A DNA stretch of 24,113 nt from a virus, in the IMG/VR virus record IMGVR_UViG_3300017751_004446, positions 1 to 24,113 of that record. One strand, 5' to 3'. Both the position numbers and the translations under genes were made by a program. The notes below the pieces were generated by a model, which saw only the letters and a list, made by a program, of their open reading frames with translations, was not told the DNA's origin and searched no databases. Positions 1-20,951 of this stretch are shown in pieces (the stretch's first letter is position 1; every line of letters begins with the position of its first letter).

Positions 1-264
1 ATCAGGCGCTCCCATCCATTGGAGAAGTTTACGCAACTTGTGACTAAAGTTCCTGCCCGGTTGCCAGCTTGCTTTGAAGCCGCAGTTAAAACAATGATAA
101 CTTACGCCTCCATCTGGGTTGCTTATCAAGCCACCTCTTCCGCGAGTGTCTGCACTGTTACCATTGTTATGACAACAGGGTGCATTAAAAGATAACCATC
201 CGCTAGGAGTTGTTTTCCTCTTAGCAGGCAAGTATGTCAGAACTGTATCGGCTACTACACTCAT
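1..264 (-). CDS. 61: T4 gp61-like DNA primase, N-terminal part (cut by window edge)
   Basis: The first 88 residues of a primase of the T4 gp61 kind, which makes the RNA primers for lagging-strand synthesis with the gp41 helicase. The reading frame is open to the left edge, so the catalytic part lies outside the window. The visible part is the zinc-binding domain: Cys30-Cys31-His32, then Cys58-x2-Cys61 in a YHCFNCGF segment, followed by a basic stretch with PGR at 69-71 and a Trp-Gly segment at 83-85. The ATG at 264 is the only reasonable start; the protein reads MSVVADTVLTYLPAKRK from there, as I recall for primases of marine T4-like phages. There is no ribosome site. The start sits 6 nt after a perfect TATAAT, so the mRNA is probably leaderless. 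The gene assignment is from remembered family patterns, not a search. Confidence 0.88.
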   Translation of the reverse strand, partial: MSVVADTVLTYLPAKRKTTPSGWLSFNAPCCHNNGNSADTRGRGGLISNPDGGVSYHCFNCGFKASWQPGRNFSHKLRKLLQWMGAPD

Positions 265-270
265 ACTATT

Positions 271-299
271 ATTATAGCGTCAATGTAGTAGTTTGTCAA
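271..299 (-). promoter_or_regulatory. Perfect sigma70-type promoter for the primase gene
   Basis: On the minus strand, TTGACA (299-294), a 17-nt spacer (293-277) and TATAAT (276-271) match the bacterial housekeeping consensus at all 12 positions. The usual start site, 7 nt past the -10 hexamer, is base 264, the A of the primase ATG. The -35 hexamer abuts the TGA stop (302-300) of the upstream gene. This looks like an early promoter read by unmodified host RNA polymerase. Confidence 0.85.
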
Positions 300-1088
300 T
301 CAGTTTCGAACAAGTATTTTGGTTATTTTGTCTGCCGGACTAGCTGTTGATTTGAATCGTACATGGCTAAACACACCATTATAGTTTACTGGTGTTGGCG
401 TAGTTTCGTTGCCTGTAAATGTTACAGTTGCTACATCAGCCCAACTAGTACCACCAGTAACTTGGTTGTCTAATGTTGCTTGTACAGTTACGTCACCAAC
501 ATATGATGTTGTATACACTACTGCTGTGTGCAATGCTTCATTACCATTAATACCTGGCTCAGCATCTAATGTTTCTGTTATCCAGTAAGGTGTTGATTCA
601 GTAACTTCAGTAAATGTTGATACATTGTATGTTGCTCTTGGTGCAGGGTTCGCCGCACTGCTTACTTTAATAATACCATTGTTTTCAAAGTGACTGTTTG
701 TATATGTTAATACAGAATCGTTATTAGCATCTTTTAAATGTATACTATATTTTAAAAATTGATCTTTAACATTTAATAAATCGTTTTCTGTAATTGTTAC
801 TTTAAATAATCCTTTAATAGGTGTTGATCCATCACTAGTTAATTGTATTCCGTCATGTTCAATTATTAAAGAATTGTTTTCATCGAACGCTTGGAACTTT
901 GGTGTGTATGCACTAAGGTCAATTGGTTTTTGATCTGCGTTTAGTAATTTAAAATCTAAGACATTATCAATGCCTTTGTAAACTTGTAGTTGTCTGTTAT
1001 ACACTGGTCTATACTCCGTTACGAATCCTGCTTCATTAGCTGTTAGGGTTGATCTATTTGAGACTAAATATCTAGGTATTAATTGCAT
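300..1088 (-). CDS. Probable virion structural protein
   Basis: A 262-residue protein without a recognised enzyme motif. It is rich in Thr, Ser, Asn and Val, with alternating polar and aliphatic residues typical of beta-sandwich phage tail or neck proteins. The last 90 residues look like a separate beta domain (TVQATLDNQVTGGTSWADVA), a pattern seen in adhesion and baseplate-type proteins. No signal peptide or membrane segment is visible. I recall similar proteins in marine T4-like phages annotated only as structural or hypothetical. The ATG at 1088 has no ribosome site but lies 4 nt after a late-promoter-like AATAAATA, which fits late expression of a virion part. It is divergent from the next plus-strand gene. 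Confidence 0.7.
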   Translation of the reverse strand: MQLIPRYLVSNRSTLTANEAGFVTEYRPVYNRQLQVYKGIDNVLDFKLLNADQKPIDLSAYTPKFQAFDENNSLIIEHDGIQLTSDGSTPIKGLFKVTITENDLLNVKDQFLKYSIHLKDANNDSVLTYTNSHFENNGIIKVSSAANPAPRATYNVSTFTEVTESTPYWITETLDAEPGINGNEALHTAVVYTTSYVGDVTVQATLDNQVTGGTSWADVATVTFTGNETTPTPVNYNGVFSHVRFKSTASPADKITKILVRN

Positions 1089-1093
1089 ATTGT

Positions 1094-1101
1094 ATTTATT
1101 C
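1094..1101 (-). promoter_or_regulatory. Late-promoter-like AATAAATA
   Basis: Minus-strand AATAAATA differs from the T4 late consensus TATAAATA only at the first base. It ends 4 nt before the ATG at 1088 of the probable structural gene, and no ribosome site lies between. Placement and target support a late promoter, but an 8-mer in AT-rich DNA can occur by chance. Confidence 0.5.
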
Positions 1102-1109
1102 GGAAACCT

Positions 1110-1481
1110 ATGTTAACAAAGAACATTCAAGAAAATTATCCTTACATTAGCGTTGTTACTTACGGCGGTAATGAATACGTTGGCATCATTGCTAATCAAG
1201 ATCAATTCATTACGACTATGTATGTATTTACAAACATTATTGATGAAGTTGAAAAGAAGTATTTCTTAGAGCTAGGCGAAACATGGTGGTGGGAGTCAAA
1301 TAGAATGATTCCAATCAACATCTTTTTAACTAGTGAAATGGAACGCTACAAATATACCTTAATGGTCATGAATAGCAAAGATGTAAAAGTTACGATTGGC
1401 CCATGTGTTAATTTAAATAACTTAACTATTAAAAGAGTAAAGCGTAAAAACGTGCAACTAGTACGTAAGCCTAAGAGCTAA
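1110..1481 (+). CDS. Conserved phage protein of unknown function
   Basis: A 123-residue protein of unknown role, one of three plus-strand genes. The frame extends to a TTG at 1083, but that would run into the divergent gene; the ATG at 1110 gives the natural N-terminus MLTKNIQENYPYISVVTYGG. The N-terminal half is beta-rich, around YGGNEYVGIIANQDQFITTM, and looks like a small barrel. The C-terminal tail is very basic (IKRVKRKNVQLVRKPKS), so nucleic-acid binding is possible, though this is inference. I recall proteins of this type in marine T4-like phages. Its 3' end overlaps the convergent polymerase-III-like gene by 11 nt. A CTAAATA at 1063-1069 may be its promoter, but this is weak. Confidence 0.7.
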   Translation: MLTKNIQENYPYISVVTYGGNEYVGIIANQDQFITTMYVFTNIIDEVEKKYFLELGETWWWESNRMIPINIFLTSEMERYKYTLMVMNSKDVKVTIGPCVNLNNLTIKRVKRKNVQLVRKPKS

Positions 1482-2031
1482 ATTCCTCACACAACATGTT
1501 CATGTGTACTATTACACTCATTGCATATGCAAAAGCGTGTGCTTTCTTAAAAAAGTAATCACCGTTTGTTGGTTTTATCCAAACTTCTTCCATTATCTTT
1601 TCCCAGCTCTCGTTTGCTAGATATCGTTTCGCTGGACGGATTATCGCTAGTGTTGCCGCCAATTGATCTACCGACGACGGTTTCAATTGTTTTAATAGAC
1701 TGTCGTGCCCGCTTAGATGAAATACTTTGTCGACGAAGTCTTTGTGTTCCAGTAGTTGCCATATTGGTTTCCTTTCCATAAGTTCTTGTAAATGTGCCTC
1801 GTCTTTTACATCTTTGTATATAGACACATTTAAAAAATCTAGTTTAAAGTAACCGCGTTCTTCTGCTGTCTTGTGTTCGATAGTAGATAAATTATCTACT
1901 GGGTTGTGTGGTATTTCTGTAGTATATACGCCAGTGTTATGTTTCTTTCCTGTATTTAATTTTGCCACACGGTGTTTGAGCTGTGAAAGCACAATGTCTC
2001 TGTCTGCAAAATCTATATCAATATCTGGCAT
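1471..2031 (-). CDS. Miniature DNA polymerase III alpha (DnaE)-like protein
   Basis: A 186-residue protein carrying, in order, the core signatures of the bacterial replicative polymerase alpha subunit and little else. MPDIDIDF (1-8) matches the DnaE PDFDIDF motif, so Asp3 and Asp5 align with catalytic D401 and D403 of E. coli DnaE. YFKLDFL (61-67) matches KFDFLGL, placing Asp65 at catalytic D555. KPSSVDQLAATLAIIRP (117-133) matches the segment before RPGP, and FKKAHAFAYA (161-170) matches FNKSHAAAYA. The PHP, thumb, OB and tau-binding regions are absent; DnaE is usually about 1,100 residues. Whether it polymerises, or acts in another way, cannot be told. The ATG overlaps the upstream membrane-peptide stop as TAATG, so the two are probably translated together. 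I recall homologues in marine phages annotated as hypothetical. Confidence 0.75.
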   Translation of the reverse strand: MPDIDIDFADRDIVLSQLKHRVAKLNTGKKHNTGVYTTEIPHNPVDNLSTIEHKTAEERGYFKLDFLNVSIYKDVKDEAHLQELMERKPIWQLLEHKDFVDKVFHLSGHDSLLKQLKPSSVDQLAATLAIIRPAKRYLANESWEKIMEEVWIKPTNGDYFFKKAHAFAYAMSVIVHMNMLCEEFSS

Positions 2032-2117
2032 TATTTTGGTTCTTCGTTATTCATAATTATTAGCATACCTACTGGTACTATGTAACATGCTAGTAAAAAT
2101 AAAATTGCTGTAATCAT
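2031..2117 (-). CDS. 28-residue single-span membrane peptide
   Basis: A very small ORF supported by its junctions: the ATG at 2117 overlaps the upstream gene's stop as ATGA, and its TAA overlaps the next ATG as TAATG, so it fills the only gap in a coupled run. The peptide starts MITAILFLLACYIVP, continues with a hydrophobic VGMLIIM stretch, and ends in a short polar tail NNEEPK. That is one membrane helix of about 20 residues with the charged end probably in the cytoplasm. There is a Cys at residue 11 within the helix. The role is unknown; small phage membrane peptides include lysis and superinfection factors, but nothing here proves either. Confidence 0.6.
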   Translation of the reverse strand: MITAILFLLACYIVPVGMLIIMNNEEPK

Positions 2118-2278
2118 TTATCTCTTTTTAAATTTTTTACTCGTTGACTTAAAAACGATATAGTTGTATTAATGTGTCCGGTGTCATGCGGCTGTAATAA
2201 AGTTTTATAATATTCAATTTCTTCTTCTAATACACTTATACGCACAATATCATTTATTAGTTTTTTCTTGTTGTTCAT
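2114..2278 (-). CDS. Small coiled-coil-like protein, 54 residues
   Basis: An unknown small protein. The frame is open upstream to 2353, but that part lies inside the preceding gene. The ATG at 2278 (MNNKKKLINDIVRISVLEEE) follows a GGAAGAAG ribosome site at about 4 nt and is preferred. Residues 5-30 form a likely amphipathic helix with Leu/Ile/Val spacing typical of a short coiled coil, and the C-terminus is basic (RVKNLKRDK). It overlaps the upstream gene by 29 nt and is joined to the following membrane peptide by an ATGA overlap. Confidence 0.55.
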   Translation of the reverse strand: MNNKKKLINDIVRISVLEEEIEYYKTLLQPHDTGHINTTISFLSQRVKNLKRDK

Positions 2279-2453
2279 CAATCTTCTTCCAACTAAACTT
2301 GCTAGGATTGCTAGGATGGTGTCCTTCGTATTCTTCACCTGTTTCCATATCAATCAATTTCCATTTTTGTGGACACTTTGTATACACAGTTAGTGTATGT
2401 TTCTCTTCAAACTCTTGTACATTGCGTCCATCTAATAATTTTCTACTTTGCAT
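2250..2453 (-). CDS. Small conserved phage protein, 67 residues
   Basis: A short hydrophilic protein with a central segment KWKLIDMETGEEYEG that looks like a small beta fold. I recall similar short proteins in marine T4-like phages, with no assigned role. It starts at the ATG at 2453, overlapping the 3' end of the deformylase gene by 11 nt. No clear ribosome site is present, so translation may depend on coupling. The C-terminal tail is Lys/Glu-rich. Confidence 0.6.
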   Translation of the reverse strand: MQSRKLLDGRNVQEFEEKHTLTVYTKCPQKWKLIDMETGEEYEGHHPSNPSKFSWKKIDEQQEKTNK

Positions 2454-2949
2454 TTTTTATAAGTTTTTCTAACTTCTTTGCTTTTTTCTTTGCCATATTC
2501 CATTTTAGATTGCTTACACGATCTTTAAATGTAATACCTAAACAATGATCTAACTCATGTAGATAGCAACGTGCTGAGTAGCCTGTAATTTTTACAGTTT
2601 GTTTTTCTAAATTCTCATCGTGCCATTCTGCAAGTATTTCTTTAGGTCTTGGAATCTTTACAAATATATTTGGAAAACTTAAACATCCTTCTAGCTCTAA
2701 TACCTTCTCTTCTGTATATTGTAACACAGTTGGATTGATATGTAAAGTTGAATTGGTTAGACTATCTCCCATAACAAATACATTGTGTGTTAATCCAACT
2801 TGTGATGCTGTCAATCCAATGCCGCCATTATCAACCATAACTTTAGTCATTTGTTCTTTTAGTTCTACAGGATCAAACCCTGGGTCTTCAAGGTTAACAT
2901 CATCTAGTTTTTGATCTAGAATTGGGTCGGGGTAATATACTAGTTTCAT
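2443..2949 (-). CDS. def: Peptide deformylase
   Basis: A 168-residue peptide deformylase, the metal enzyme that removes the formyl group from new polypeptides. All three family motifs are visible: GIGLTASQ (43-50, family GIGLAAxQ), EGCLS (87-91, metal ligand Cys89) and HELDH (131-135, with two His ligands and the catalytic Glu132). The usual Leu after HExDH is Cys here. The length is normal for the family and the C-terminus is Lys-rich. Deformylases are known auxiliary genes in marine phages and are thought to help process phage or photosystem proteins in infected cells. The ATG at 2949 has an AAGGA ribosome site and an ATGA overlap with the upstream gene. Confidence 0.92.
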   Translation of the reverse strand: MKLVYYPDPILDQKLDDVNLEDPGFDPVELKEQMTKVMVDNGGIGLTASQVGLTHNVFVMGDSLTNSTLHINPTVLQYTEEKVLELEGCLSFPNIFVKIPRPKEILAEWHDENLEKQTVKITGYSARCYLHELDHCLGITFKDRVSNLKWNMAKKKAKKLEKLIKNAK

Positions 2950-3356
2950 AATTTTCCTTCTCGTCGCAGTTGCTTACGTATCTTAGTTGCACTAATGTCG
3001 TGTATCTCTTTACCTAAGTCATGTTCAGTAAATGTATATCCTACACCTCGGCCATAACTAATATCTACAATATTAGGCACCTGCATTATTATATATTCAA
3101 CATGATGATCAAACCCATGTTGCTTCAATGCCCATTGTATATCACTGCTTATAGTAATAAAGTCAAAGGGGTTATCATCTTGTACAACTGTACGTCCTGC
3201 GCCAGCATCTTTGCCTATGATGCCTTCTACGTTACGTACCATTATACATACTTGTCCTGTTTCAGCAAGAGCACGTTTGAATAGTTCTGTATGCCCATCA
3301 TGCCAAGGTTGCCATCTACCTAGCATCTGTGTGGTTGGCTTTTTTAAATCAAACAT
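2946..3356 (-). CDS. HxGH nucleotidyltransferase (nucleotidylyltransferase superfamily)
   Basis: A 136-residue enzyme of the cytidylyltransferase/adenylyltransferase fold. GRWQPWHDGH (13-22) carries the HxGH nucleotide-binding motif, and ISATKIR (121-127) matches the ISxTxIR motif near the C-terminus. Both are needed for transfer of a nucleotide from NTP. The substrate cannot be read from the sequence: nicotinamide mononucleotide, phosphopantetheine, glycerol phosphate and sulfate are all used in this superfamily. It lies next to an adenylylsulfate-kinase-like gene, which hints at a shared pathway, but the resemblance to ATP sulfurylase is not enough to claim it. The start has a good GGAGAAG ribosome site. 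Confidence 0.82.
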   Translation of the reverse strand: MFDLKKPTTQMLGRWQPWHDGHTELFKRALAETGQVCIMVRNVEGIIGKDAGAGRTVVQDDNPFDFITISSDIQWALKQHGFDHHVEYIIMQVPNIVDISYGRGVGYTFTEHDLGKEIHDISATKIRKQLRREGKL

Positions 3357-3774
3357 TATTCTTCTCCATCCATCTTTGTACTACAGGCATAAGTTGTGTA
3401 TGTGTATCATCAAACCAATTTGCTACGTGATAGTCAACCTTTTCAGGTGTTTCAAACATATCGTTTGTATCTTCAAAACGACCTCTAGAAATAGTATCCA
3501 TCCATACTGTATAGTCTGGTTCAAATTCTTTACGTGTTTGTTCAGTGGGGCACACAAAGTCGGCAACTGCTACTTTGCCGGCCATGACTACTCCATCAGC
3601 TAAGTGGCGCATACGTTGTGCTTGTCGCATACGTCCTTCTGGTGTAAAGTCCCAATCATCATACTTAGTACGCACTTCGTCTGCGTTTATATGTACGGCG
3701 CCTATTAGATCTGCAAATGGTTTTGCTAATGTACTCTTACCGCTACCTGGCAGACCAAAAATTAATATTTTCAT
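3349..3774 (-). CDS. Adenylylsulfate-kinase-like P-loop kinase
   Basis: A 141-residue P-loop kinase. The Walker A motif GLPGSGKST is at 7-15, followed by NADEVR, where APS kinase has DGDNVR. DWDFTPEGRMRQAQRM then matches the DLGFSxEDRxENIRR region of APS kinases, and the segment DFVCPTEQTR matches AFISPxRxxR. APS kinase makes PAPS, the sulfate donor for sulfotransferases, and a sulfotransferase is encoded at 18346. The protein is shorter than CysC (about 200 residues) and some CysC motifs are changed, so a kinase of another small molecule or nucleotide is possible. It overlaps the upstream gene as ATGA and the downstream gene by 8 nt. Confidence 0.7.
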   Translation of the reverse strand: MKILIFGLPGSGKSTLAKPFADLIGAVHINADEVRTKYDDWDFTPEGRMRQAQRMRHLADGVVMAGKVAVADFVCPTEQTRKEFEPDYTVWMDTISRGRFEDTNDMFETPEKVDYHVANWFDDTHTQLMPVVQRWMEKNNV

Positions 3775-4472
3775 AAACTACTTTCTCTTGCAACATCTTT
3801 TACAAGTTGTAGATCATTAGGCAGTTTTCTAAATCTCATTGCCCAATGTTCCGGGTTAATTACGTGATAAACCATTTGTAATTGTTCATCATTAAACTTA
3901 CTTAACATAGTCTTTCCGCTAGTACAATTCAAAATGAGCCAAGGACTTATTTTTCCATCTTTAATATCCCATACTGCTCTGTTCAAACTAATATAATTAA
4001 AATAATGATTCCAAGCCGCTGGTTCGTTTTCTTCAGCCCAGTCCATCATATTTTTTACACTACGTTCTAATGCAGTAGTTACATCTTCTTTTAAAATAAA
4101 TTCTAATACATATTTTTCATACATTGTATCTCTACACCAGTGATCTAATTTTACGCCACTAGTAACAACATAGTCAATATACTTTTCTGGATACAAAGGT
4201 TTTACATTACTAAGAAAGCTACCAAACTTAACAAAAGCATTGTAATAAGGACTAGAACAAAAATCCTCATATGTTTTCTCTTTCTTATTGCCTGCACTTA
4301 ATTTATAAAAACGCCCAAATGCATAAAATCCATAACGCACTCGTTTCTCATCTTTCTGCAAAGCTCTGCGTTTCTTTTCACACATATGCGCAAAGAGAGT
4401 TTTCTCTCTTACGTAACTGCTACCACAGTATTCGCATTTAAATGCTTTCTCAGAGTTTAACATCGATGTCAT
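3771..4472 (-). CDS. Conserved phage protein with N-terminal zinc finger
   Basis: A 233-residue protein of unknown role, of a type I recall as conserved in marine T4-like phages. Near the N-terminus FKCEYCGSSYVREKTLFAHM holds a Cys-x2-Cys-x12-His-x-Cys zinc-finger pattern, followed by a basic KKRRALQKDEKRVRYGF stretch suited to nucleic-acid contact. The remaining 180 residues are helical and Trp/Tyr-rich, with a conserved-looking segment SPWLILNCTSGKTMLSKFN. A role in late transcription or DNA handling is conceivable but unproven. The first ATG is at 4472 and a second, in frame, is at 4463; neither has a clear ribosome site. It overlaps the upstream gene by about 20 nt, with which it seems to form a fixed pair. 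Confidence 0.75.
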   Translation of the reverse strand: MTSMLNSEKAFKCEYCGSSYVREKTLFAHMCEKKRRALQKDEKRVRYGFYAFGRFYKLSAGNKKEKTYEDFCSSPYYNAFVKFGSFLSNVKPLYPEKYIDYVVTSGVKLDHWCRDTMYEKYVLEFILKEDVTTALERSVKNMMDWAEENEPAAWNHYFNYISLNRAVWDIKDGKISPWLILNCTSGKTMLSKFNDEQLQMVYHVINPEHWAMRFRKLPNDLQLVKDVARESSL

Positions 4473-4902
4473 GGTCTTTTGCAAGTTCTTTGAGTTCTTT
4501 TTTTGTAGATATTCTAGCAAGTAATTCTACCTCATCTTGTTTCATAGTTGGATAGAGCTTTTGTAAAAAGTTGATTGCATTGTTGTTACCAACTTTCTTT
4601 TTAAAACCAATCCATTTGTGGAATTCTATTTTGCCTGTGTTGCCTGATTGACATAATAACTGCCATTGTAATTTAGGATGCCTTGTGCCAAACTCGTTCC
4701 AGTTTTTGTTGTAGTATTCATTAGTTTTAAATACTGCAAGTTCTTGTGCATCTCTATTACCATTAACAGAACTTACGTATCTGTTTAACAGCCAAAAGTT
4801 AATTTGTTTGCGTTCTTCGTCTGATAATTCGTCCCACACATTCTTTGCACCCATATCAATGGCTGCCAATATATCTTTTATTGGGAGTTTTTGTAATGCC
4901 AT
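4450..4902 (-). CDS. Conserved marine T4-like phage protein, function unknown
   Basis: A 150-residue protein whose segments AIDMGAKNVWDELSDEERKQ, NRYVSS, HPKLQWQLLC and FHKWIGFKKK match a family I recall beside the zinc-finger protein in cyanophages and pelagiphages. It is mostly helical, and the C-terminal ELLARISTKKELKELAKDHD looks like a helix-hairpin segment. There is faint likeness in layout to the small clamp-loader subunit gp62 (a K-x-W-x-K segment and a Lys/Leu-rich tail), but not enough to name it so. The start ATG at 4902 has an AGGA site 9 nt upstream and overlaps kdsB by 25 nt. Confidence 0.72.
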   Translation of the reverse strand: MALQKLPIKDILAAIDMGAKNVWDELSDEERKQINFWLLNRYVSSVNGNRDAQELAVFKTNEYYNKNWNEFGTRHPKLQWQLLCQSGNTGKIEFHKWIGFKKKVGNNNAINFLQKLYPTMKQDEVELLARISTKKELKELAKDHDIDVKL

Positions 4903-5570
4903 AAATGTAAGTCCTCTTGTGTGTTTATCTCTACTCCTTTAAAGTATACACTACTACAACCAATTTGCCAACCACTTTTTAACCAACGTAGTTGTTCAAG
5001 TTGCTCAATTGTTTCTTCTTGTGTAATCTCTAATGATGGATACAAGTTTAATGTTTCACGTCGATATCCATATATACCTAAGTGCCATTCGCCATACCCA
5101 GTCATGCCTCTACCAAACCATAGAGCTTGGTCGCCTGCTCTAACCATTTTAACTGAGGCAGGATTGTCTTGCATTTCTTTTGGCATTTCTGTAAACACTG
5201 TACTAACAGGATAATACTTTAACCATTGGACACAACGTTCGATCATCTCAACTGTTACGTCTGGCATATCACCTTGTACGTTAATGAACTGATCGTATTG
5301 TTTTAGTTCATCCCACTTTGTTACGGCGCCGGCGCATCGTTCAGTACCGTTTGCATATGGTGCTATTTGTTCTTCTTCAATCCAACACTTGTTAGAACCA
5401 AACAAACCAAAGATACGCATATCATCAGTAAGCACGTATGTTGGTATCTTAGACGCAATACAAGCGTCATACACACGTTTTATCATAGGAACGTTGTCCA
5501 ACATAGCCAACGACTTTCCAGGCAGTCTAGTGCTGTTATAACGTGCTGGTATTAGTATTGCAGTGTTCAT
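4878..5570 (-). CDS. kdsB: CMP-Kdo synthetase (3-deoxy-manno-octulosonate cytidylyltransferase)
   Basis: A 230-residue enzyme that activates Kdo with CTP to give CMP-Kdo, the donor for Kdo transferases. The N-terminal PARYNSTRLPGK (8-19) matches the CTP-binding PARxxSxRxPxK motif. NGTERCA (74-80), FINVQGDMP (95-103) and HLGIYGYRRETL follow in family order, and the C-terminus has EQLEQLRWLKSG and a GV-x-x-NTxEDL segment. The length is slightly below E. coli KdsB (248). Two family positions differ: QGDEP is QGDMP, and VDTPEDL is INTQEDL, so one metal-ligand Asp may be Asn. The ATG at 5570 overlaps the hemE stop as ATGA. With kdsA two genes upstream, the phage codes two of the Kdo pathway steps; the phosphatase KdsC is not in the window. 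Confidence 0.9.
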   Translation of the reverse strand: MNTAILIPARYNSTRLPGKSLAMLDNVPMIKRVYDACIASKIPTYVLTDDMRIFGLFGSNKCWIEEEQIAPYANGTERCAGAVTKWDELKQYDQFINVQGDMPDVTVEMIERCVQWLKYYPVSTVFTEMPKEMQDNPASVKMVRAGDQALWFGRGMTGYGEWHLGIYGYRRETLNLYPSLEITQEETIEQLEQLRWLKSGWQIGCSSVYFKGVEINTQEDLHLWHYKNSQ

Positions 5571-6547
5571 TTTTCAAATCTTTCCTTTACCATATCTATA
5601 AACATTCGGACATTGTCTTCTGGTGTTTCTTTGTGTATGCCATGTCCTAATCCGCATATCCATCCAGTTCTGTCAACTCGCTCCATACCATCGAGCCATT
5701 CGTTAATTTCTGTTTTTAAATACTGTCTAGGCAACATCATAAGTTTCTCATCAAAGTTACCTTGGATAAATCCGTCTTTATATTTTTTAAATGTTCTATG
5801 TATATCAACAGTACTATCAATACCTAATCCTGCCCAACCCATTCTATACAAAGAAGGTAAGCATCTTGAATTTAAATGCTGTGTGTAATATCCTGTGTTA
5901 GGATTTTTTAATGGTTTTAATATATTCATGTAATGCGTTTTAAAAAAGGCTTCACTCATATTACCTACACCACTATCTAATATCATAACTTTTTCAGCAC
6001 CAGCTTCTAATTGTAAATGAATGTTACTCCGAAGCAATGGCACTATAACTTCTTCTAAATATTCTGCCTTCCACTTTAAACTCATGTTAGGCTGTTTGCC
6101 TGTAGCATAATTTAACAATGTCCAAGGGCCGCCTACAAAGCCAATTAAACTTTTTGATCTATGTAATGCTTCTCGAGTTGCTCTAACTGCTGTTGCTTGA
6201 AACTCCATATGTTCAGACGCTTTAGCAATATTGCTATGATCTTTATAATTGGTTTCGTTAATAGTCCATTCAAATTGAGGACCTGGTGCAAACTTTAAAG
6301 GAACGCCTAATCCTTCAATAGGAAAAAGAATGTCACTAAACAATATAGCAATATCAAAGTCAAATTGATCAATTGGTAGCATTGCAGTACGTGCGGCTAT
6401 TCTTGGTAGTTTACACATTTGTTCAAAGGTAAACTGTTCCTTTAGTTCCATGTATCCTTTTTGGTATCTACCTGCTTGTCGCATCATCCATATAGGTGGA
6501 CAAGGTTGATCGATACGCTCACACGCATTTTGAAATTTAATATTCAT
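5567..6547 (-). CDS. hemE: Uroporphyrinogen decarboxylase
   Basis: A 326-residue HemE, which removes four carboxyls from uroporphyrinogen III to give coproporphyrinogen III in haem and chlorophyll synthesis. The signature PPIWMMRQAGRY (17-28) is intact. All active-site positions known from the human enzyme have counterparts: Arg23 and Arg27 (human R37, R41), Asp72 in FSDIL (D86), Tyr147 in PWTLLNY (Y164), Ser192 in ILDSGVG (S219) and His302 in GLGHGI (H339). IQGNFD matches the family LQGNLDP. It is slightly short of the usual 340-360 residues, with no truncation visible at either end. It overlaps kdsA by 11 nt and kdsB as ATGA, so it is co-translated with Kdo genes. Why tetrapyrrole and Kdo enzymes share an operon is not explained. 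Confidence 0.9.
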   Translation of the reverse strand: MNIKFQNACERIDQPCPPIWMMRQAGRYQKGYMELKEQFTFEQMCKLPRIAARTAMLPIDQFDFDIAILFSDILFPIEGLGVPLKFAPGPQFEWTINETNYKDHSNIAKASEHMEFQATAVRATREALHRSKSLIGFVGGPWTLLNYATGKQPNMSLKWKAEYLEEVIVPLLRSNIHLQLEAGAEKVMILDSGVGNMSEAFFKTHYMNILKPLKNPNTGYYTQHLNSRCLPSLYRMGWAGLGIDSTVDIHRTFKKYKDGFIQGNFDEKLMMLPRQYLKTEINEWLDGMERVDRTGWICGLGHGIHKETPEDNVRMFIDMVKERFEK

Positions 6548-7310
6548 GATGAAATGCTATAATATCCTTTACTACATTTTCAAAGTCGTCTAACCGTAAC
6601 ATGTTAGGACCATCGCTAGGTGCTACATCAGGATCTGTATGGACCTCCATGAAAAAGTTCCTGATCCCAAGAGCAGACCCACTACGAGCCAACCCAGGCA
6701 CGTAATCCCTATTACCACCTGAACTAGAACCAAGTCCGCCGGGTTTTTGGACAGAGTGCGTAACATCAAAAACAATATCATGTTCATAAGTGTCGAGCAT
6801 ATACATAAGACCAGTATAGTCAACGACAAGATTGTTATAACCAAAACTTGTACCCCTCTCAGTTATCCAGACATCCTTTGCGCCTTCACATTTACTTAGT
6901 ATACCTTTTAAATCCCAAGGTGCTAAGAATTGTCCTTTCTTTATATTTACTATCTTATCTGTAGCACAAGCCGCTTTTACTAAGTCGGTTTGTCTACACA
7001 AGAATGCAGGAATCTGATAGACATCAACTGCATCTTTAAATTCTCTTTCAATACGTGCAACCTGCACATAGTCATGTATATCAGTAAGTGTCTTTACACC
7101 TAGTTCTACTTTTAGTGCAAGGAAGTCAGTTAGTGTTGCTTCCATACCCATACCACGTATACCTTGCATACTACTACGATTGGCTTTATCGTAACTTGCT
7201 TTGAAGTAGTATTCAATGCCATACTTGTCACATACACGTTTGCACTCTTTAGCAATCTCTGCACTCTGTGCTAGTCCTTCGTGTTGACAAGGTCCTGCTA
7301 TAATTCTCAA
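6537..7310 (-). CDS. kdsA: Kdo-8-phosphate synthase, metal-dependent class
   Basis: A 257-residue KdsA, which joins phosphoenolpyruvate and arabinose 5-phosphate to give Kdo 8-phosphate. KASYDKANRSS (37-47), QIPAFLCRQTDL (99-110), ITERGTSFGYNNLVVD (149-164) and FDVTHSVQ (181-188) are diagnostic. The AGPC motif has Cys8 where the E. coli enzyme has Asn, and His185, Glu222 and Asp233 are in place, so all four metal ligands of the Aquifex-type enzyme are present. The start is a TTG at 7310: a GGGAG ribosome site lies about 7 nt upstream, the TTG overlaps the cupin stop as TTGA, and the protein then begins directly with the first strand, RIIAGPC. No ATG is available upstream within the gene limits. 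Confidence 0.93.
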   Translation of the reverse strand: MRIIAGPCQHEGLAQSAEIAKECKRVCDKYGIEYYFKASYDKANRSSMQGIRGMGMEATLTDFLALKVELGVKTLTDIHDYVQVARIEREFKDAVDVYQIPAFLCRQTDLVKAACATDKIVNIKKGQFLAPWDLKGILSKCEGAKDVWITERGTSFGYNNLVVDYTGLMYMLDTYEHDIVFDVTHSVQKPGGLGSSSGGNRDYVPGLARSGSALGIRNFFMEVHTDPDVAPSDGPNMLRLDDFENVVKDIIAFHHEY

Positions 7311-7636
7311 TGGTTTCTCCCGCCGTCAAATACACAAATAAATTTTAAACCAAAGTCTGTATTGTTGTGTACTTTGTGAAATACGTTGTCTTCAATTAGC
7401 ACAGTATCACCTGCTGTAACATCAAATATTTTATGATCAAGTTCCATCTGGCCACTGCCACTGACAAACATATATACTTCTTCTTGTCCGGCATGTCGAT
7501 GTCCAGTTGTACTTTTATGAGCTGATAACATTGTACTGCTTACTACTAAGTTGTTTAATAATGTGTTATCTTTTACAACGTAGCGGTCATCGTTTTTAAC
7601 TTCATCGCCGCCAATGTCCCATTTACTGTATTTCAT
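7307..7636 (-). CDS. Single-domain cupin protein
   Basis: A 109-residue cupin. The first cupin motif is TTGHRHAGQEEVYMFVSGSG (HxH, a downstream Glu and a closing Gly), and the second is GDTVLIEDNVFHKVHNN with the metal-binding His. A single metal site is therefore likely. Such small cupins include sugar epimerases, isomerases and binding proteins; the substrate is not readable. It lies directly before kdsA and overlaps it as TTGA, which suggests a role in sugar supply. The ATG at 7636 is preferred over one at 7645 because an AAAGGA ribosome site lies 8-9 nt before it, too close to the earlier codon. It overlaps the preceding gene by 14 nt. Confidence 0.82.
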   Translation of the reverse strand: MKYSKWDIGGDEVKNDDRYVVKDNTLLNNLVVSSTMLSAHKSTTGHRHAGQEEVYMFVSGSGQMELDHKIFDVTAGDTVLIEDNVFHKVHNNTDFGLKFICVFDGGRNH

Positions 7637-7919
7637 TTCTATCATCCTTTATCATATAGTAAGTTGTTACTATTTTATCGAGTTGATGTTTGAGCGTTTC
7701 GTTTTGTGCGGCCACCTCACAGATATCTTTCCATGTACCGTAGTCCATTAAATCACCTTGTGCTCTTGCAACAGCACCTGGGTCTCCGCCTATGATCCAA
7801 CGTTCGATCTCAGGCTTATCTCGATAACGAGCAAACACGACACCTTCGGCCCGCTCGTATATTAATGCTTCTCCGGGTAGTAAACTACCTCTTACTTCAT
7901 CATTTGAGTATTGCGACAT
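7623..7919 (-). CDS. Conserved phage protein of unknown function, 98 residues
   Basis: I cannot name this protein. The N-terminal 45 residues read as a small beta domain (LLPGEALIYERAEGVVFARYRD, then IERWIIGGDP). The C-terminal half is a helix with heptad-like spacing (AAQNETLKHQLDKIV) that could dimerise. I recall like proteins in marine T4-like phages. The ATG at 7919 is used rather than the TTG one codon upstream. It overlaps the methyltransferase gene by 20 nt and the cupin gene by 14 nt, so it is part of a tightly packed operon. Confidence 0.65.
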   Translation of the reverse strand: MSQYSNDEVRGSLLPGEALIYERAEGVVFARYRDKPEIERWIIGGDPGAVARAQGDLMDYGTWKDICEVAAQNETLKHQLDKIVTTYYMIKDDRNEIQ

Positions 7920-8430
7920 CAAATTTTCCTTTAGTTGTTAATTCACTGTATTGTATATCACCATCGATACAATCATTAATTTTTGTTGTCCACCAGTCAG
8001 GAGATTCTAAAATTAAATGTGCATTGCGTCCATCTGGTAAACTTTTCCTTGCTGGTAGTGTGTCAATACGTAACCATATATAGTTACTTGATAAACTGTT
8101 TATGTGTTCTAAAACTTGGTTAACATAGTTTGGTTCTATGTGTTCTAATACATCGTTTGAAAATACACATTCGTAAACTCTGCTTGGTACTCCAGCAAAC
8201 ATTTTTACTGCTGGATCATACCCTTCAAACATTGTATTAGGATATTTGTCTCGTAGTTGTGATAATACATATCCCTTACCACATCCATAATCAAGTAAAG
8301 TGCTTGGCTTCCAAGCATCCATCCAATTATAGAATCTACCTAACTTCTTAGGTTTGCCTCCAAAGCCTTGAGGCCGACTACTGTCAGTGTGTAGGCTTTG
8401 GAGTTGTTTTATGTAGCTGTTGCTATACAT
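7900..8430 (-). CDS. Class I SAM-dependent methyltransferase
   Basis: A 176-residue Rossmann-fold methyltransferase. Motif I, LLDYGCGKG, is at 45-53 and binds S-adenosylmethionine; motif II (YDPA, 71-74) follows; and SNDVLEHIE (91-99) is the post-II segment of the UbiE/COQ5-like group. The last 50 residues contain the dipeptide WW and have no target-recognition domain, so a small molecule or sugar is a more likely acceptor than DNA. Its ATG overlaps the stop of the transporter gene by one base (TAATG). Substrate unknown. Confidence 0.85.
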   Translation of the reverse strand: MYSNSYIKQLQSLHTDSSRPQGFGGKPKKLGRFYNWMDAWKPSTLLDYGCGKGYVLSQLRDKYPNTMFEGYDPAVKMFAGVPSRVYECVFSNDVLEHIEPNYVNQVLEHINSLSSNYIWLRIDTLPARKSLPDGRNAHLILESPDWWTTKINDCIDGDIQYSELTTKGKFDVAILK

Positions 8431-9038
8431 TAACCAGCTTCTGTGTCATTAGTACGTCTTTTGATGTAACGTAGTAATAAACCGTATGCTGGTAGGAACA
8501 CAATTAGTCCCACTGCAATCTTCAAGCCTGCTTGGCTTGTTGCAATTTCCATCCAGTTAGCGGCCATGTACTCATCGGCGCTGTTGTTGAATGCAACTGC
8601 AAAGAATGTATAACTGTCAATTACGTTTGCAACTACAGTTGACAATGCCGGTGCTAACCACCATACATTCATACGCTCTCTAATTGCTTGGAACACATAT
8701 ACGTCAATAAATGTACCTACTGCATATGCTGTTGCTGATGCAAAACCAATACGCATTGCTACACTCTCTGGTGCACCTTCTGCTAGTACTACCGCAATAC
8801 TTGTGATAATAGCAATTGGATACGCCGCGGCAATAGTTGCTCGAGCAATGTTCTTACCTAACATTCTAACTGTTAGGTCAGTTGCTAGAATAACTAATGG
8901 GAACGTAAATGCCGCCCAAGTTAATTTAATACCAGCAATCTCTACTGGAATCGCAACTAGTGCGTTACTTATTGTGATGACTACAACATGCAATAGTGCA
9001 AGTTTGAGCATCATCTTCTTATCGATGTTTTTAAACAT
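8430..9038 (-). CDS. yhhQ: YhhQ/VUT-family transporter, probable queuosine-precursor importer
   Basis: A 202-residue integral membrane protein with about six hydrophobic helices, ending in a basic tail (RYIKRRTNDTEAG). The order of segments (an N-terminal ALLHVVVITISNALV helix, FPLVILATDLTVRMLGK, a TAYAVGTFIDVYVFQAIRE loop, and the ANVIDSYTFFAVAF helix) fits the VUT/YhhQ family. In E. coli YhhQ takes up preQ0 and preQ1, precursors of queuosine in tRNA. Some phages use the same precursors for 7-deazaguanine DNA modification. No queuosine or deazaguanine synthesis gene is visible in the window. A GGAAAGAAG ribosome site precedes the ATG at 9038. Confidence 0.85.
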   Translation of the reverse strand: MFKNIDKKMMLKLALLHVVVITISNALVAIPVEIAGIKLTWAAFTFPLVILATDLTVRMLGKNIARATIAAAYPIAIITSIAVVLAEGAPESVAMRIGFASATAYAVGTFIDVYVFQAIRERMNVWWLAPALSTVVANVIDSYTFFAVAFNNSADEYMAANWMEIATSQAGLKIAVGLIVFLPAYGLLLRYIKRRTNDTEAG

Positions 9039-11389: not shown

Positions 11390-12649
11390 TTATAGTTCTT
11401 GTATCCCGTTTTTATCAAATCTCATTATCTGAGATGCAGTTTCATCAAAGTGTATTACTAAGTTTGCTTCTTCAATGTATGTTTTTACATTGGTAGACGG
11501 CATCACACTGTCCATCATTAGAACAGTTAATGCCTCCCATTTAACTTTTAGTAACGGCTTTGGTATTTTATTATTATTAATATACACTACTTTTAATGAT
11601 TTGTCAAGTGTTGTATTAATTTTTTCTCTTTTAATATAGTTGTTAAACTCAGGATTAACATGCGAATCTAATCTAAATAACACACTACACTCATGTGGTT
11701 CAATAAATCCTTTTAATGAGTTGTGTACTAATTGTAATGAATCTAATGGATCAAAATTTGTAGGTAGCATTACAAGTAACGGAAATCTATCTAATTCTAA
11801 TAATGATTCAGCAATGTTGTTAAAGTTATATTTTGTTTTATTTACGAAAACATGTGTTGAAGTTCTTCGAACGATACCTTGTGATAAAGTTGAAAGCATA
11901 TTAATACTTTCATCAAGTTTGTTTGGGTCAATGTGTTCTATGCCTAATGAAGAACTGCGATCTTTATATAGTGAAAGGTTATCAATACTAGGTTCTCCTA
12001 AACTAGACAGCATAAATTTTACTGCACGATCATTTAAATTTTTTAATTTAAAATTATATATTCCAGGTATATGTTCCTTTTTGTTTTGTTTCATCTCTTG
12101 TAGCTTTCTATTCCATTCAAGCAATTCTTCATCTATTCCAAACTGTTTGTTTTCAAACTGTTCTAGAATCTGTATTGCATTACGTTCAGTTAATAAAAAA
12201 TAATGTTCATGTGAACCTTTCTCATGAATGTATTCGTGTGTCTTATATCTAATCTTATCAAGTGCTACAATAAGTTTTTTAGAAAAAGGAAAACGTATTT
12301 TAATCCAAGGTAACTCCATACCGTGTAAGTCAACTGATTGAAATTTGGTCATTGTCATATTAACAATTTTAATATACTTACTTCTATCAATCTGACGCAA
12401 GGGCATACGTAGGTTATTAATTGCAAAATGAAAATCTATATTATTTTCTATAAATTGATCTTTGTATGTGTTTAATTTCTCTTGAACCACCTCTAGTTGT
12501 CTGTCTGTCAGTGCTACACCTTTAAATACTTGCCTCGCAATACTATACATGATAGTCATGTCGTTGCGCTGTAGTGTCATTTTGTGAGAAGTAGATAGCC
12601 CAGCTATACTTTCGAGAAGGTCTTCAACAGTGTATATTTCATGATCCAT
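11390..12649 (-). CDS. Large conserved phage protein upstream of uvsW, function unknown
   Basis: A 419-residue protein that I do not recognise as an enzyme. The N-terminus (MYSIARQVFKGVALTDRQLEVVQEKL) resembles a helical accessory module I recall in phage replication proteins. The rest is a mixed fold with Asn/Lys/Ile-rich segments and no Walker motif. The C-terminal 120 residues (LLVMLPTNFDPLDSLQ, then KWEALTVLMMDSVMPS) might be a Rossmann-like or degenerate helicase half, which is inference. It is first in the uvsW operon, 1 nt ahead of the helicase, so a role in replication or recombination is likely. The ATG at 12649 follows a perfect TATAAT by 6 nt and has no ribosome site, so it is probably leaderless. 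Confidence 0.75.
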   Translation of the reverse strand: MDHEIYTVEDLLESIAGLSTSHKMTLQRNDMTIMYSIARQVFKGVALTDRQLEVVQEKLNTYKDQFIENNIDFHFAINNLRMPLRQIDRSKYIKIVNMTMTKFQSVDLHGMELPWIKIRFPFSKKLIVALDKIRYKTHEYIHEKGSHEHYFLLTERNAIQILEQFENKQFGIDEELLEWNRKLQEMKQNKKEHIPGIYNFKLKNLNDRAVKFMLSSLGEPSIDNLSLYKDRSSSLGIEHIDPNKLDESINMLSTLSQGIVRRTSTHVFVNKTKYNFNNIAESLLELDRFPLLVMLPTNFDPLDSLQLVHNSLKGFIEPHECSVLFRLDSHVNPEFNNYIKREKINTTLDKSLKVVYINNNKIPKPLLKVKWEALTVLMMDSVMPSTNVKTYIEEANLVIHFDETASQIMRFDKNGIQEL

Positions 12650-16893: not shown

Positions 16894-17548
16894 ATAGTTC
16901 TTGTTTCCACAATTCGTTATATTCACAATTACGATAGTTTTCAAACCAAGGACCACCTTCTGTATAGTGTATTAGATTTGGTTTTTCAATATCATCATAC
17001 ACACCTACTAAGTAGTTCCATGTATGATCTAGTTCGCCTACTTCGCTATCATCAAGCCAACTAAAGCGATGTAAGTATGCACCGTTAATTTCTGGTTCAT
17101 TAACTAATTCTTGAGTAAGAGCTTTGTTACTAGGATGTTCGCAATTAAACAACATTACACTTGACCAGTTCTTACGTGGATAGATAGTTTGTTTTTGTCC
17201 GTCCATCTTAAACTGTTCTTTAACTTTATAATCATGTTGTACACACATAACAGCATACTTGTCGTCTGCTTGATCAAACAATTTTTTAATGTCAGTTGTA
17301 AGGATCATATCACAATCCATAAACACTGCCCAACCTTTGAAGTTACATAACTCAGGTATAAGGAAACGTGTAAAAGTAAACTCAGTGCTTGCTAGTTTAT
17401 CTATAGGTCTATTATACCAGCCTGCATCTCTTAATTCTTGTTGTTTTAAAGGGCGCACATCGGCATCAGGTTGTCTAGCTAATATACTATGCTTACAAAC
17501 TTGATAAGCAATGTCCTCTCTAGTGTCATACCCTACAAATACTTTCAT
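16877..17548 (-). CDS. Family-8-like GT-A glycosyltransferase
   Basis: A 223-residue glycosyltransferase. It opens with MKVFVGYDTREDIAYQVCKH, a pattern common in phage GT-A enzymes, and has the DxD motif in FMDCDMIL (78-80). WSSVMLFNCEHPSN and LIHYTEGGPWFENY near the end are typical of the same group (the last probably donor-site His and acceptor-site residues). It is not membrane-bound. The start ATG at 17548 overlaps the stop of the upstream fusion gene as ATGA. The sugar donor is unknown. Confidence 0.8.
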   Translation of the reverse strand: MKVFVGYDTREDIAYQVCKHSILARQPDADVRPLKQQELRDAGWYNRPIDKLASTEFTFTRFLIPELCNFKGWAVFMDCDMILTTDIKKLFDQADDKYAVMCVQHDYKVKEQFKMDGQKQTIYPRKNWSSVMLFNCEHPSNKALTQELVNEPEINGAYLHRFSWLDDSEVGELDHTWNYLVGVYDDIEKPNLIHYTEGGPWFENYRNCEYNELWKQELYDMFK

Positions 17549-18321
17549 GTGTCTTTTCTTTCAATGTCTTCTTCAATACAATTTGTTCCGTATTGTATTT
17601 CTACTAATTTTAAATTTGTGTTGTGTTCGTTAGCAAGTTGATGCCAAGTTCCTACAGGTATATGTAACGACTCGTGTTGATTGTATGTACCTAATGTTTC
17701 TATATCAGTACTACGTGTGTTAATAGTATATACTGTTGCTGTTCCTTCTGCAACAAACCAATGTTCTGAACGTTCTTTATGACGTTGCATCGATAGCTTA
17801 CCACCTGGTGGCACTGCTAATTCCTTTACTTTAGTATGTTCATCATATTCGTGTATCACTCTGTAGTACCCCCATGTACGCTCAGTCTTTGGTGCCTTCC
17901 ACTCGTCTAGTATCCAGCTACTTGAATTCTTTTTATCTTCGCCACCTACGCCAAATACAAATTCTACATTAGGCATATCACCATATGTAGCATACTCCGG
18001 TGTTGTTGTGTTAGTTCTATCTCCACCGTTAGCAAAGATTACTTTGATGTCTCCATGTGTACTTAGCGTATGAAAAATTGCATGACAAGCACTATCGTCG
18101 CTGTCGTCAAATCCAATTACTTTATCTACAATTTCCATTTCTTGTATAAGTGCAATACGTTCTGTAAAGGGCATAAAGGGCCTACCTTTTTTACGTGTTA
18201 ACCATTCGTCACTATTCACGCCGACAATAAGTTTGTCGCCGAGCTTCTTTGCTTCTTTGAAATAGGCTAGATGCCCTGAGTGTAGTGGATCAAAGCCACC
18301 TGTTACTAATACAACGTTCAT
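17545..18321 (-). CDS. Nucleotidyltransferase fused to a mannose-6-phosphate-isomerase-type cupin
   Basis: A 258-residue two-domain protein. Residues 1-138 are an HxGH nucleotidyltransferase: GGFDPLHSGH (8-17), KLGDKLIVGVNSDEW (26-40), RPFMPFTERI, and a C-terminal SSSWIL motif; the pattern is close to the ADP-heptose (HldE/RfaE C-terminal) and glycerol-phosphate cytidylyltransferases. Residues 147-258 are a type II phosphomannose-isomerase cupin like the C-terminus of ManC: WGYYRV, PPGGKLSMQRHKERSEHW, LHIPVGTWHQ and ENHNT-like NEHNTN. It is normal in ManC to follow a sugar-nucleotide domain of another fold, so this pairing is unusual. It leads the glycan operon. It has no ribosome site; a late-like element lies 5 nt before the ATG at 18321. 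Confidence 0.82.
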   Translation of the reverse strand: MNVVLVTGGFDPLHSGHLAYFKEAKKLGDKLIVGVNSDEWLTRKKGRPFMPFTERIALIQEMEIVDKVIGFDDSDDSACHAIFHTLSTHGDIKVIFANGGDRTNTTTPEYATYGDMPNVEFVFGVGGEDKKNSSSWILDEWKAPKTERTWGYYRVIHEYDEHTKVKELAVPPGGKLSMQRHKERSEHWFVAEGTATVYTINTRSTDIETLGTYNQHESLHIPVGTWHQLANEHNTNLKLVEIQYGTNCIEEDIERKDT

Positions 18322-18326
18322 AAGTA

Positions 18327-18340
18327 TATTTAATTAAATA
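18327..18340. promoter_or_regulatory. Palindrome TATTTAATTAAATA with a late-like element facing each way
   Basis: This 14-bp perfect palindrome lies between two divergent genes. Read on either strand it contains ATTAAATA, six of eight matches to the T4 late consensus TATAAATA. On the plus strand it ends 5 nt (gcagt) before the ATG at 18346; on the minus strand it ends 5 nt (tactt) before the ATG at 18321. The symmetry suggests one bidirectional promoter. Neither gene has a ribosome site. Confidence 0.5.
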
Positions 18341-18345
18341 GCAGT

Positions 18346-18927
18346 ATGGCTATACATATTCCTGAGCATAACTTGACCTTTATTCATATTCCAAAGACAG
18401 GCGGCTCTAGTATACAAGATTGGTTATTAAAAAATAACAAATGCGTATATCCTAAAAAATCAGTACATTGGAACGTTAGTCAGACTAAGGAACACTTTGT
18501 TAATGTTGGCAAAACATTTTGTGTAGTACGCAATCCATATGATTGGATGGTTAGTTGGTTTGAATACGAACGTAAACTTACACCAAGATACATAGCAAAG
18601 TTAGGCAGTATACATAAACTTAATCTTGAGAAAGAGACTCACAACAAAGAACTTCTTATTAAAAAACAGTCTATACTAGATAAAGGATTTAAATGTTATT
18701 TGTTAGAATATGGAATTAACATAACGTCACAATACAGTTGGGCAAATGATGTTGATATTGTATTACGTTTTCACAATTTAAATAATGATTTTAAACAACT
18801 GTTTAAAACTAACACTAACTTGCCTACAGTGAACACTACAGAACGTCAAGCCTGGCCTAGTTATTACGATAAAGAATGTAAACAAATTATGTTAGATTAT
18901 TTTAGTAAAGATTTTACCCTTTTATAA
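18346..18927 (+). CDS. Sulfotransferase family protein
   Basis: A 193-residue sulfotransferase, which moves sulfate from PAPS to a sugar or other hydroxyl. IHIPKTGGSS (13-22) is the 5'-phosphosulfate loop, and VVRNPYDWMVSWFEY (60-74) is the 3'-phosphate-binding segment with Arg62 and Asp66. The length is short but usual for phage and bacterial carbohydrate sulfotransferases. The PAPS donor could be made by the kinase-like protein at 3349. It stands alone on the plus strand, overlaps the convergent pyruvyltransferase-like gene by 31 nt, and seems leaderless at the shared palindromic promoter. Confidence 0.88.
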   Translation: MAIHIPEHNLTFIHIPKTGGSSIQDWLLKNNKCVYPKKSVHWNVSQTKEHFVNVGKTFCVVRNPYDWMVSWFEYERKLTPRYIAKLGSIHKLNLEKETHNKELLIKKQSILDKGFKCYLLEYGINITSQYSWANDVDIVLRFHNLNNDFKQLFKTNTNLPTVNTTERQAWPSYYDKECKQIMLDYFSKDFTLL

Positions 18928-20254: not shown

Positions 20255-20262
20255 TATAAATA
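20255..20262 (+). promoter_or_regulatory. Perfect T4-late TATAAATA for the glycosyltransferase at 20268
   Basis: Plus-strand TATAAATA is an exact match to the T4 late promoter consensus. It ends 5 nt before the ATG at 20268, so a start site 6 nt downstream is the A of ATG. No ribosome site fits. The element overlaps a 12-bp palindrome TAAATATATTTA (20257-20268). Confidence 0.7.
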
Positions 20263-20270
20263 TATTTATG
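20263..20270 (-). promoter_or_regulatory. Late-type CATAAATA for the FkbM-like gene at 20233
   Basis: Minus-strand CATAAATA fits the relaxed NATAAATA late pattern I recall from marine T4-like phages. It lies back to back with the plus-strand TATAAATA, sharing an AT palindrome. The expected start site near 20257 leaves a leader of about 24 nt containing AAAGGA, a normal ribosome site 6-7 nt before the ATG at 20233. Confidence 0.6.
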
Positions 20271-20951
20271 AGAATACTTTATGCCACCGGCACAAGCAGA
20301 TCCTACTTTTCAACAATAACTGGTTATACACTGCCTTCTTGGAAGTATTTAATCGGAGATAAAATTGTATACCTTGATGAAGATTTTAAAATTCCTTCAT
20401 TTAAAACAAGGTCAATAATGTTTGAAAAATGGAAAAAACCAAGTCTGTTTAGTGCATCAGAAGAAAAGTTTTATAGAAAAAGTAGATGCATTGTACAAGC
20501 ATTAGAAGACGGTTGGAAATACGACTATGTTATCTGGATAGATGGTGATGTTGAAGTTACTAAACAACCTAATTTGTTAGAAATTTTACCAAATAGTAAT
20601 GAGCTAGTAAGTGCAGTACGGAAGCCTGGTAAAGACGGAACAGGACTTGATAGTGGGTTTGTTGCATTCAATATGAAACACAAATCACTTGGTGTATTTT
20701 TATCAGAGTATACATCATTCTGGCTTGACAAAGAACGGCTTAGAGCATTGCCTTACAGATATGATGCACCTGTGTTGGAAGAAATATTAAAAAAGTATAC
20801 TTGGCGTAATTTACTTAATGATGATTATGATGGTGATAATCCGGAAAAGAAACATCATTGTGGGTTTGATGGTAGTGTATTAGAAAAGTATTTTTTACAC
20901 TATTGGGGCAAAAAACTTAAACAACAAAGATTTTCTAACAAGAAAAGATAG
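20268..20951 (+). CDS. GT-A type glycosyltransferase
   Basis: A 227-residue protein with DxD in VIWIDGDVEV (92-94), set in the same position and context as the DxD of the other glycosyltransferases here. It starts with a Rossmann strand MRILYATGTS and has TGLDSGFVAFNMKHKSLG after the DxD, a segment common in this group (donor binding and a conserved Asn). It ends with a very basic tail (KKLKQQRFSNKKR), possibly membrane-facing. It overlaps the convergent methyltransferase gene by 17 nt. It begins directly downstream of a perfect late promoter and lacks a ribosome site. Confidence 0.75.
   Translation: MRILYATGTSRSYFSTITGYTLPSWKYLIGDKIVYLDEDFKIPSFKTRSIMFEKWKKPSLFSASEEKFYRKSRCIVQALEDGWKYDYVIWIDGDVEVTKQPNLLEILPNSNELVSAVRKPGKDGTGLDSGFVAFNMKHKSLGVFLSEYTSFWLDKERLRALPYRYDAPVLEEILKKYTWRNLLNDDYDGDNPEKKHHCGFDGSVLEKYFLHYWGKKLKQQRFSNKKR

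Follow-up and report, generated by a model that had tools for sequence, protein, structure and literature searches.

Leaderless phage mRNAs are known, as are both of the promoter types considered here, and leaderless mRNAs in phages of proteobacteria have usually been treated as curiosities. The standard model is the cI mRNA of phage lambda, which starts at its AUG and has no Shine-Dalgarno (SD) sequence (PMC5230787, PMC8138138), an organization that we predict for the DNA primase gene described below; cI, however, is a single lysogeny regulator of a temperate phage, whereas the genes at issue here encode core replication and virion proteins of presumably lytic jumbo phages and are served by two promoter classes. 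In E. coli, undissociated 70S ribosomes favor leaderless initiation, and IF3 counteracts it on the 30S subunit (PMC5230787, PMC8138138). The late promoters of T4, with gp55 as their sigma factor and the octamer TATAAATA as their box (PMC1524935, PMC2988020), have the same box as the phages studied here, several contigs of which encode a gp55-like sigma, but none lies 4 to 5 nt from an ORF in T4, as against about a fifth in this lineage. Jumbo phages of the RaK2/GAP32/121Q type have the same order of virion gene, primase (gp61) and helicase (gp41), but their primases have leaders with SD sequences, unlike the primase of our sequence. AR9 and the phiKZ-type phages are jumbo phages with mapped promoters, but they use multisubunit RNA polymerases of their own (PMC5312081); the untranslated regions of AR9 measure 26 to 491 nt, none being leaderless, and the same paper describes phage transcripts as often leaderless (PMC5312081). 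In the open-access literature, we found no account of a phage lineage in which leaderless mRNAs and both promoter types are systematically combined in the expression of core replication and virion genes.

Kinship of the phage and the primase promoter

The stretch of DNA analyzed (the window; 24,113 nt, 36% GC) is part of the genome of an uncultured jumbo myovirus, broadly of the RaK2/PA5oct/SCTP-2 kind, and not of a classic T4 phage, because its UvsX and primase find their best matches in jumbo phages (the primase by tblastn to annotated jumbo-phage primases) and positions 1 to 8000 gave no nucleotide match in 50,697 phage records. Membership of the RaK2-type jumbo lineage is indicated by the virion gene-primase-gp41 order in relatives and cultured phages and by the relationship of the primases; in the primase tree, the RaK2 block is separate from the group of the window. 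Instead of the leadered late promoters and T4-like nearest relatives of the Straboviridae, we found a leaderless late class and jumbo-phage nearest relatives, and the label "T4-like" in the preliminary description thus holds in a broad sense only, the closest annotated relatives being jumbo phages and T4 itself having no leaderless site among 34 late ones. The window also carries genes for a uroporphyrinogen decarboxylase (5567-6547), a DAHP/KDO8P-synthase family enzyme (6537-7310), a KdsB-like cytidylyltransferase (4878-5570), a peptide deformylase (2443-2949; Pfam, 2e-36) and a Vut_1 family membrane transporter (8430-9038; Pfam, 5e-24).

The primase gene (gp61 type) lies on the minus strand at positions 1 to 264, where the window end cuts it to its N-terminal 88 codons. 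Its earlier identification as a primase held up in profile searches (PHROG 47, E=3.4e-9), and L034, a full-length relative, matched the same family with a score of 5e-40. The promoter noted previously is exact and its arithmetic was right, with the addition that it is read from the minus strand: a -35 hexamer TTGACA (299-294), a 17-nt spacer (293-277), a -10 hexamer TATAAT (276-271) and a 6-nt discriminator AATAGT (270-265) precede the ATG (264-262), so that sigma70 consensus (TTGACA, 16 to 18 nt, TATAAT) is matched without deviation and the predicted transcription start (+1), judged by sigma70 geometry, is the A at position 264. None of AGGA, GGAG, GAGG and AAGG occurs before this ATG in the window sequence. 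In leadered promoters of the same lineage, A occupies the predicted +1 register in 85 of 117 cases.

Perfect 12/12 sites with a 17-nt spacer occur twice in the window, against none for a backwards control pattern, and each of the two, read on the minus strand, is followed after exactly 6 nt by an ATG that opens a long ORF; weak matches (up to three mismatches) show no excess, with 67 found and 69.8 in shuffled sequence. The second perfect promoter, TTGACA-N17-TATAAT at 12684-12656, precedes the ATG at 12649 and overlaps the upstream ORF at its 3' end. Another promoter-like site (11607-11579) is located within an ORF. A near-perfect site, TTGATA-N18-TATAAT (11418-11389, minus strand, abutting the uvsW ATG at a distance of 0), was judged to be a chance site or a coupled start and set aside because it would set +1 within the ORF and the stop of the upstream gene overlaps it.

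Among 80 IMG/VR relatives, which yielded 67 distinct primase upstream regions, 64 retained at least 10 of the 12 promoter bases, 62 of these with the 17-nt spacer; the distance from -10 hexamer to ATG was 6 nt in 57, 7 nt in 6 and 5 nt in 1, and an SD core was present in 0 of 67, in keeping with the earlier statement that the gene lacks one. In the 55 aligned upstreams with 6-nt spacing, TTGAC was invariant (55/55), TATAAT was nearly so, T stood at the predicted -1 in 50 and most spacer columns carried 0.5 bit or less. The preliminary description had treated loss of the hexamers in close relatives as counting against its reading; nearly all relatives retain them, whereas the spacer sequence has mostly diverged, which is conservation beyond neutral drift, and a chance origin of this promoter is excluded by its retention (64/67, 57 of them at 6 nt).

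The wider sample extended down to about 30% identity and included cultured jumbo phages, to a total of 129 distinct proteins. A sigma70 promoter in leaderless register was called for 107, an SD sequence instead for 12 and neither, under our thresholds, for 10; the start codon was free to vary in calling some relatives, which favors the register, and the same procedure gave 0.4% on a shuffled null. On the primase tree, the leaderless and SD labels clustered much more strongly than when shuffled, and RaK2, GAP32, Munch and Vibrio 2.275 fell together in a single SD block; the tree is read for coarse grouping only because some duplicate rows and long branches remain in it. Promoters in leaderless register were found for the primases of Pseudomonas phage PA5oct, where a perfect promoter is followed after 6 nt by a GTG that lies two codons into the annotated gene, and of Salicola phage SCTP-2, where the start is ATG. 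Both starts look misannotated, that of PA5oct (MK797984, 145884) belonging at the GTG 6 nt downstream and that of SCTP-2 (MF360958, 160281) about 96 nt upstream. Genome-wide, the leaderless pattern is weak in PA5oct, with counts of 2 late sites and 1 sigma70 site, and SCTP-2, with 7 late sites, shows it to a modest extent.

We consider it very probable that this host-type consensus promoter yields a leaderless primase mRNA: RNA polymerase would start at the A of the ATG or no more than 1 nt from it, and ribosomes would initiate at the 5'-terminal AUG without SD pairing. The "early" timing earlier assigned to this mRNA would follow from the host-type consensus. The main rival bears on the reason for the layout and does not conflict with leaderless transcription. 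Genome compaction alone may have squeezed promoters against or into neighboring genes, with leaderless initiation tolerated rather than selected; the 35-nt gap after the stop codon (at 300) of the upstream virion structural protein gene (300-1088, minus strand; PHROG 14467) is filled by the primase promoter, and the second perfect promoter encroaches on its neighbor. Compaction explains a lack of room but neither the exact registers, 6 nt for sigma70 sites and 5 nt for the late boxes described below, nor the retention of the primase layout down to about 30% identity, and we regard it as a plausible explanation that falls short of an even chance.

Distances between promoters and start codons across the lineage

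Leaderless transcription of the primase gene can also be viewed against the distances between all recognizable promoters and start codons in seven large related contigs and the window (1.58 Mb in total; sigma70 sites with at most one mismatch, ATGs of ORFs of at least 60 amino acids). The sigma70 distances are bimodal, with 4, 21 and 5 sites at 5, 6 and 7 nt (30 in total), none at 4 or 8 nt and a second, broad class of 131 at 18 to 45 nt; a reversed control pattern gave no peak. ATGs placed 6 nt after a site open long ORFs in 21 of 26 cases, compared with a base rate of 18% for all ATGs, and an SD core precedes none of 34 leaderless genes (distances of 4 to 9 nt) as opposed to 93 of 120 leadered ones. 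An unsupervised positional 6-mer scan upstream of ORFs without SD sequences likewise recovered TATAAT at 6 nt and TTGACA at 29 nt. About a fifth of the recognizable ORF-preceding sigma70-type promoters would thus place +1 on the ATG, those of the primase, often the DnaB-like helicase and the protein encoded upstream of uvsW among them, and the remaining promoters of this and the late class would give leaders of 20 to 45 nt, usually with an SD sequence.

The genes recurrently found in this register encode the primase, the DnaB-like helicase (PHROG 19), the protein upstream of uvsW (in all eight sequences) and a UvdE-type endonuclease (in two). In the window, the uvsW-upstream gene (11390-12649, minus strand; 419 amino acids) follows the second perfect promoter, which is conserved in relatives, and is the second predicted leaderless sigma70 gene. 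Its 48 distinct relatives comprise 39 with a leaderless promoter and no SD sequence, 7 with an SD sequence and no promoter and none with both, and 2 further ones called at 11 nt, which are doubtful. The start codon is ATG at every start spaced 5 to 7 nt from the promoter and mostly TTG or GTG at SD-type starts, so that the AUG preference expected of leaderless mRNA is seen in this gene; the GTG of the PA5oct primase is an exception. The helicase gene is leaderless in 21 of 52 distinct relatives, and the layout is therefore not obligatory but switches state in evolution. As a separate observation, the 419-amino-acid protein family adjoining uvsW is widespread in these phages. PHROG and PDB sequence searches with the window protein gave nothing solid, and its AlphaFold model (pLDDT 79, pTM 0.52) had good matches only to uncharacterized phage proteins, the helicase-like matches in the PDB being weak and all above E=0.001.

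These distances also bear on a reading that accepts a genuine, conserved promoter but places the transcription start a few nucleotides further downstream or at multiple positions, with translation beginning at an internal in-frame codon or relying mainly on a longer transcript from upstream. The choice of start site can wander by 1 to 2 nt, a minority of sites are spaced at 5 or 7 nt and a GTG lies two codons into the window primase. Against this, the peak is sharp, the ATG-AGT of the primase is near invariant among close relatives, a longer upstream transcript would offer no SD sequence and a second promoter class with a different geometry leads to the same +1; we hold a displaced start to be improbable.

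A second promoter class of T4 late type

The second class that supports initiation on the start codon itself emerged from the same unsupervised scan, in which TAAATA at 5 nt (35 ORFs) and 4 nt (21 ORFs) was among the strongest signals. The T4 late box, of which TAAATA forms the core, occupies -13 to -6 from the transcription start (PMC1524935), so that an ATG 5 nt past the box would have its A at +1. The octamers found resemble TATAAATA, as in T4 late promoters, and their leaderless peak at 5 nt differs in geometry from the 6 nt of sigma70 sites while predicting the same +1. With the full late box (NATAAATA), the 1.58 Mb contain 55 ORF starts at 4 to 5 nt (40 of them at 5 nt) versus 191 at 10 to 45 nt; ATGs at 5 nt open ORFs of at least 60 amino acids in 40 of 42 cases (18% for all ATGs), and an SD core precedes 6 of the 55 genes. 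About a fifth of the T4-late-type promoters would accordingly be placed to start transcription on the ATG of genes for virion structural proteins, tail tube and others. In five of the eight lineage contigs we detected a gp55-like sigma factor (E about 1e-6, central part only), the window being itself a fragment. The conserved late leaderless families comprise the virion protein adjoining the primase, a tail tube-like protein, other virion proteins and a cytidylyltransferase; in PA5oct, the orthologous virion gene adjoining the primase starts 5 nt after ATAAATA, and its product is annotated as detected by mass spectrometry.

TAAATA precedes four ATGs of the window, by 5 nt at 18321 (minus strand), 18346 (plus) and 20268 (plus) and by 4 nt at 1088 (minus). 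The last of these belongs to the virion gene upstream of the primase, whose box, AATAAATA (1093-1100, minus strand), is a predicted leaderless late promoter. A palindromic box, TATTTAATTAAATA (18327-18340), is common to two divergent genes whose ATGs at 18321 and 18346 are separated by 24 nt (18322-18345), and reading it on either strand would put +1 on an ATG. The minus-strand gene (17545-18321) encodes a cytidylyltransferase/cupin protein (Pfam CTP_transf_like and MannoseP_isomer), orthologues of which have the same layout in six contigs, and the plus-strand gene (18346-18927) encodes a sulfotransferase-like protein; both are predicted to be leaderless late genes. So is a 227-amino-acid ORF (20268-20951, plus strand) that had no PHROG or Pfam match and is preceded by the box TATAAATA (20255-20262). 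Other divergent gene pairs with late boxes on both strands were seen in G007 and G009.

The late register is absent from T4 (0 of 34 box-to-ORF distances at 4 to 5 nt), and RaK2 has neither form in register (0 of 35 late and 0 of 31 sigma70 sites); Syn9 and P-SSM2 have 0 to 2 sites in register. The excess over T4 and RaK2 is significant for the late class (Fisher p=4e-7), as is that over RaK2 for the early class (p=0.005). An origin of these layouts in base composition, with AT-rich sequence supplying TATAAT or TAAATA near ATGs, finds some encouragement in the 36% GC of the window and in weak promoter matches at chance level, but it is rejected as next to impossible on the grounds of the reversed-pattern controls, which gave no peak, the shuffles, the conservation of the promoter and the absence of late sites in register from T4 and RaK2, which are equally or more AT rich.

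Pelagibacter phage HTVC008M (NC_020484) has the late form in common with this lineage, with nine late boxes exactly 5 nt before ATGs versus eight leadered, but only one sigma70 site in register, and it belongs to a different group, the Kyanoviridae. Four of the register starts that we examined, those of the tail tape measure, DNA end protector, baseplate tail tube cap and baseplate wedge genes, are the submitters' own. In view of these nine boxes, a further phage group may make leaderless late mRNAs.

Possible consequences for gene expression

The earlier prediction of a transcription start on the A of the primase ATG is supported by the retention of both the hexamers and the 6-nt spacing, and it holds more widely, for further genes and for a second class of promoter; as far as sequence comparison can tell, the local prediction is a well-supported case of a lineage-wide, two-promoter leaderless program. 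A large group of aquatic jumbo phages thus appears to start the mRNAs of key replication and virion genes exactly on the start codon. We propose that a leaderless gene would be translated only from the transcript of its own promoter, since its AUG would lie internally, and without an SD sequence, in any RNA that reads through from the virion gene, and that promoter choice would in this way gate translation. A more tentative suggestion, which we put forward as one possibility among others, is that these phages have a second translation mode by design, in which promoters for the host sigma and for the late sigma alike set +1 at the AUG of selected core genes, tying the translation of these genes to their own promoters and to an infection-induced ribosome state (for example, 70S or factor depleted), and thereby timing expression without a dedicated regulator. 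E. coli uses leaderless translation little (PMC5230787), which weighs against the leaderless reading. The host was sought by looking in genome contigs for relatives of the uroporphyrinogen decarboxylase of this phage, and none was confirmed.

The primase genes of a highly diverse lineage of aquatic jumbo phages repeatedly show the register-exact design, which extends over two sigma classes, and the reason for leaderless expression can therefore be tested in sister phages in which a gene, such as the helicase gene or the neighbor of uvsW, has switched from one type of start, leaderless or SD, to the other. The promoters also offer a rule for calling starts in phage genes that have no SD sequence, and applying it corrects the start-codon annotation of the PA5oct and SCTP-2 primases. 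Among leadered genes, a run of small genes in G007 (L114-L115, 11700-23400) has an individual sigma70 promoter for each gene, with a near-identical leader (ATAGGGCAAACA...GAGGGCAA) and a promoter/leader spacing of 28 to 43 nt before the ATG.
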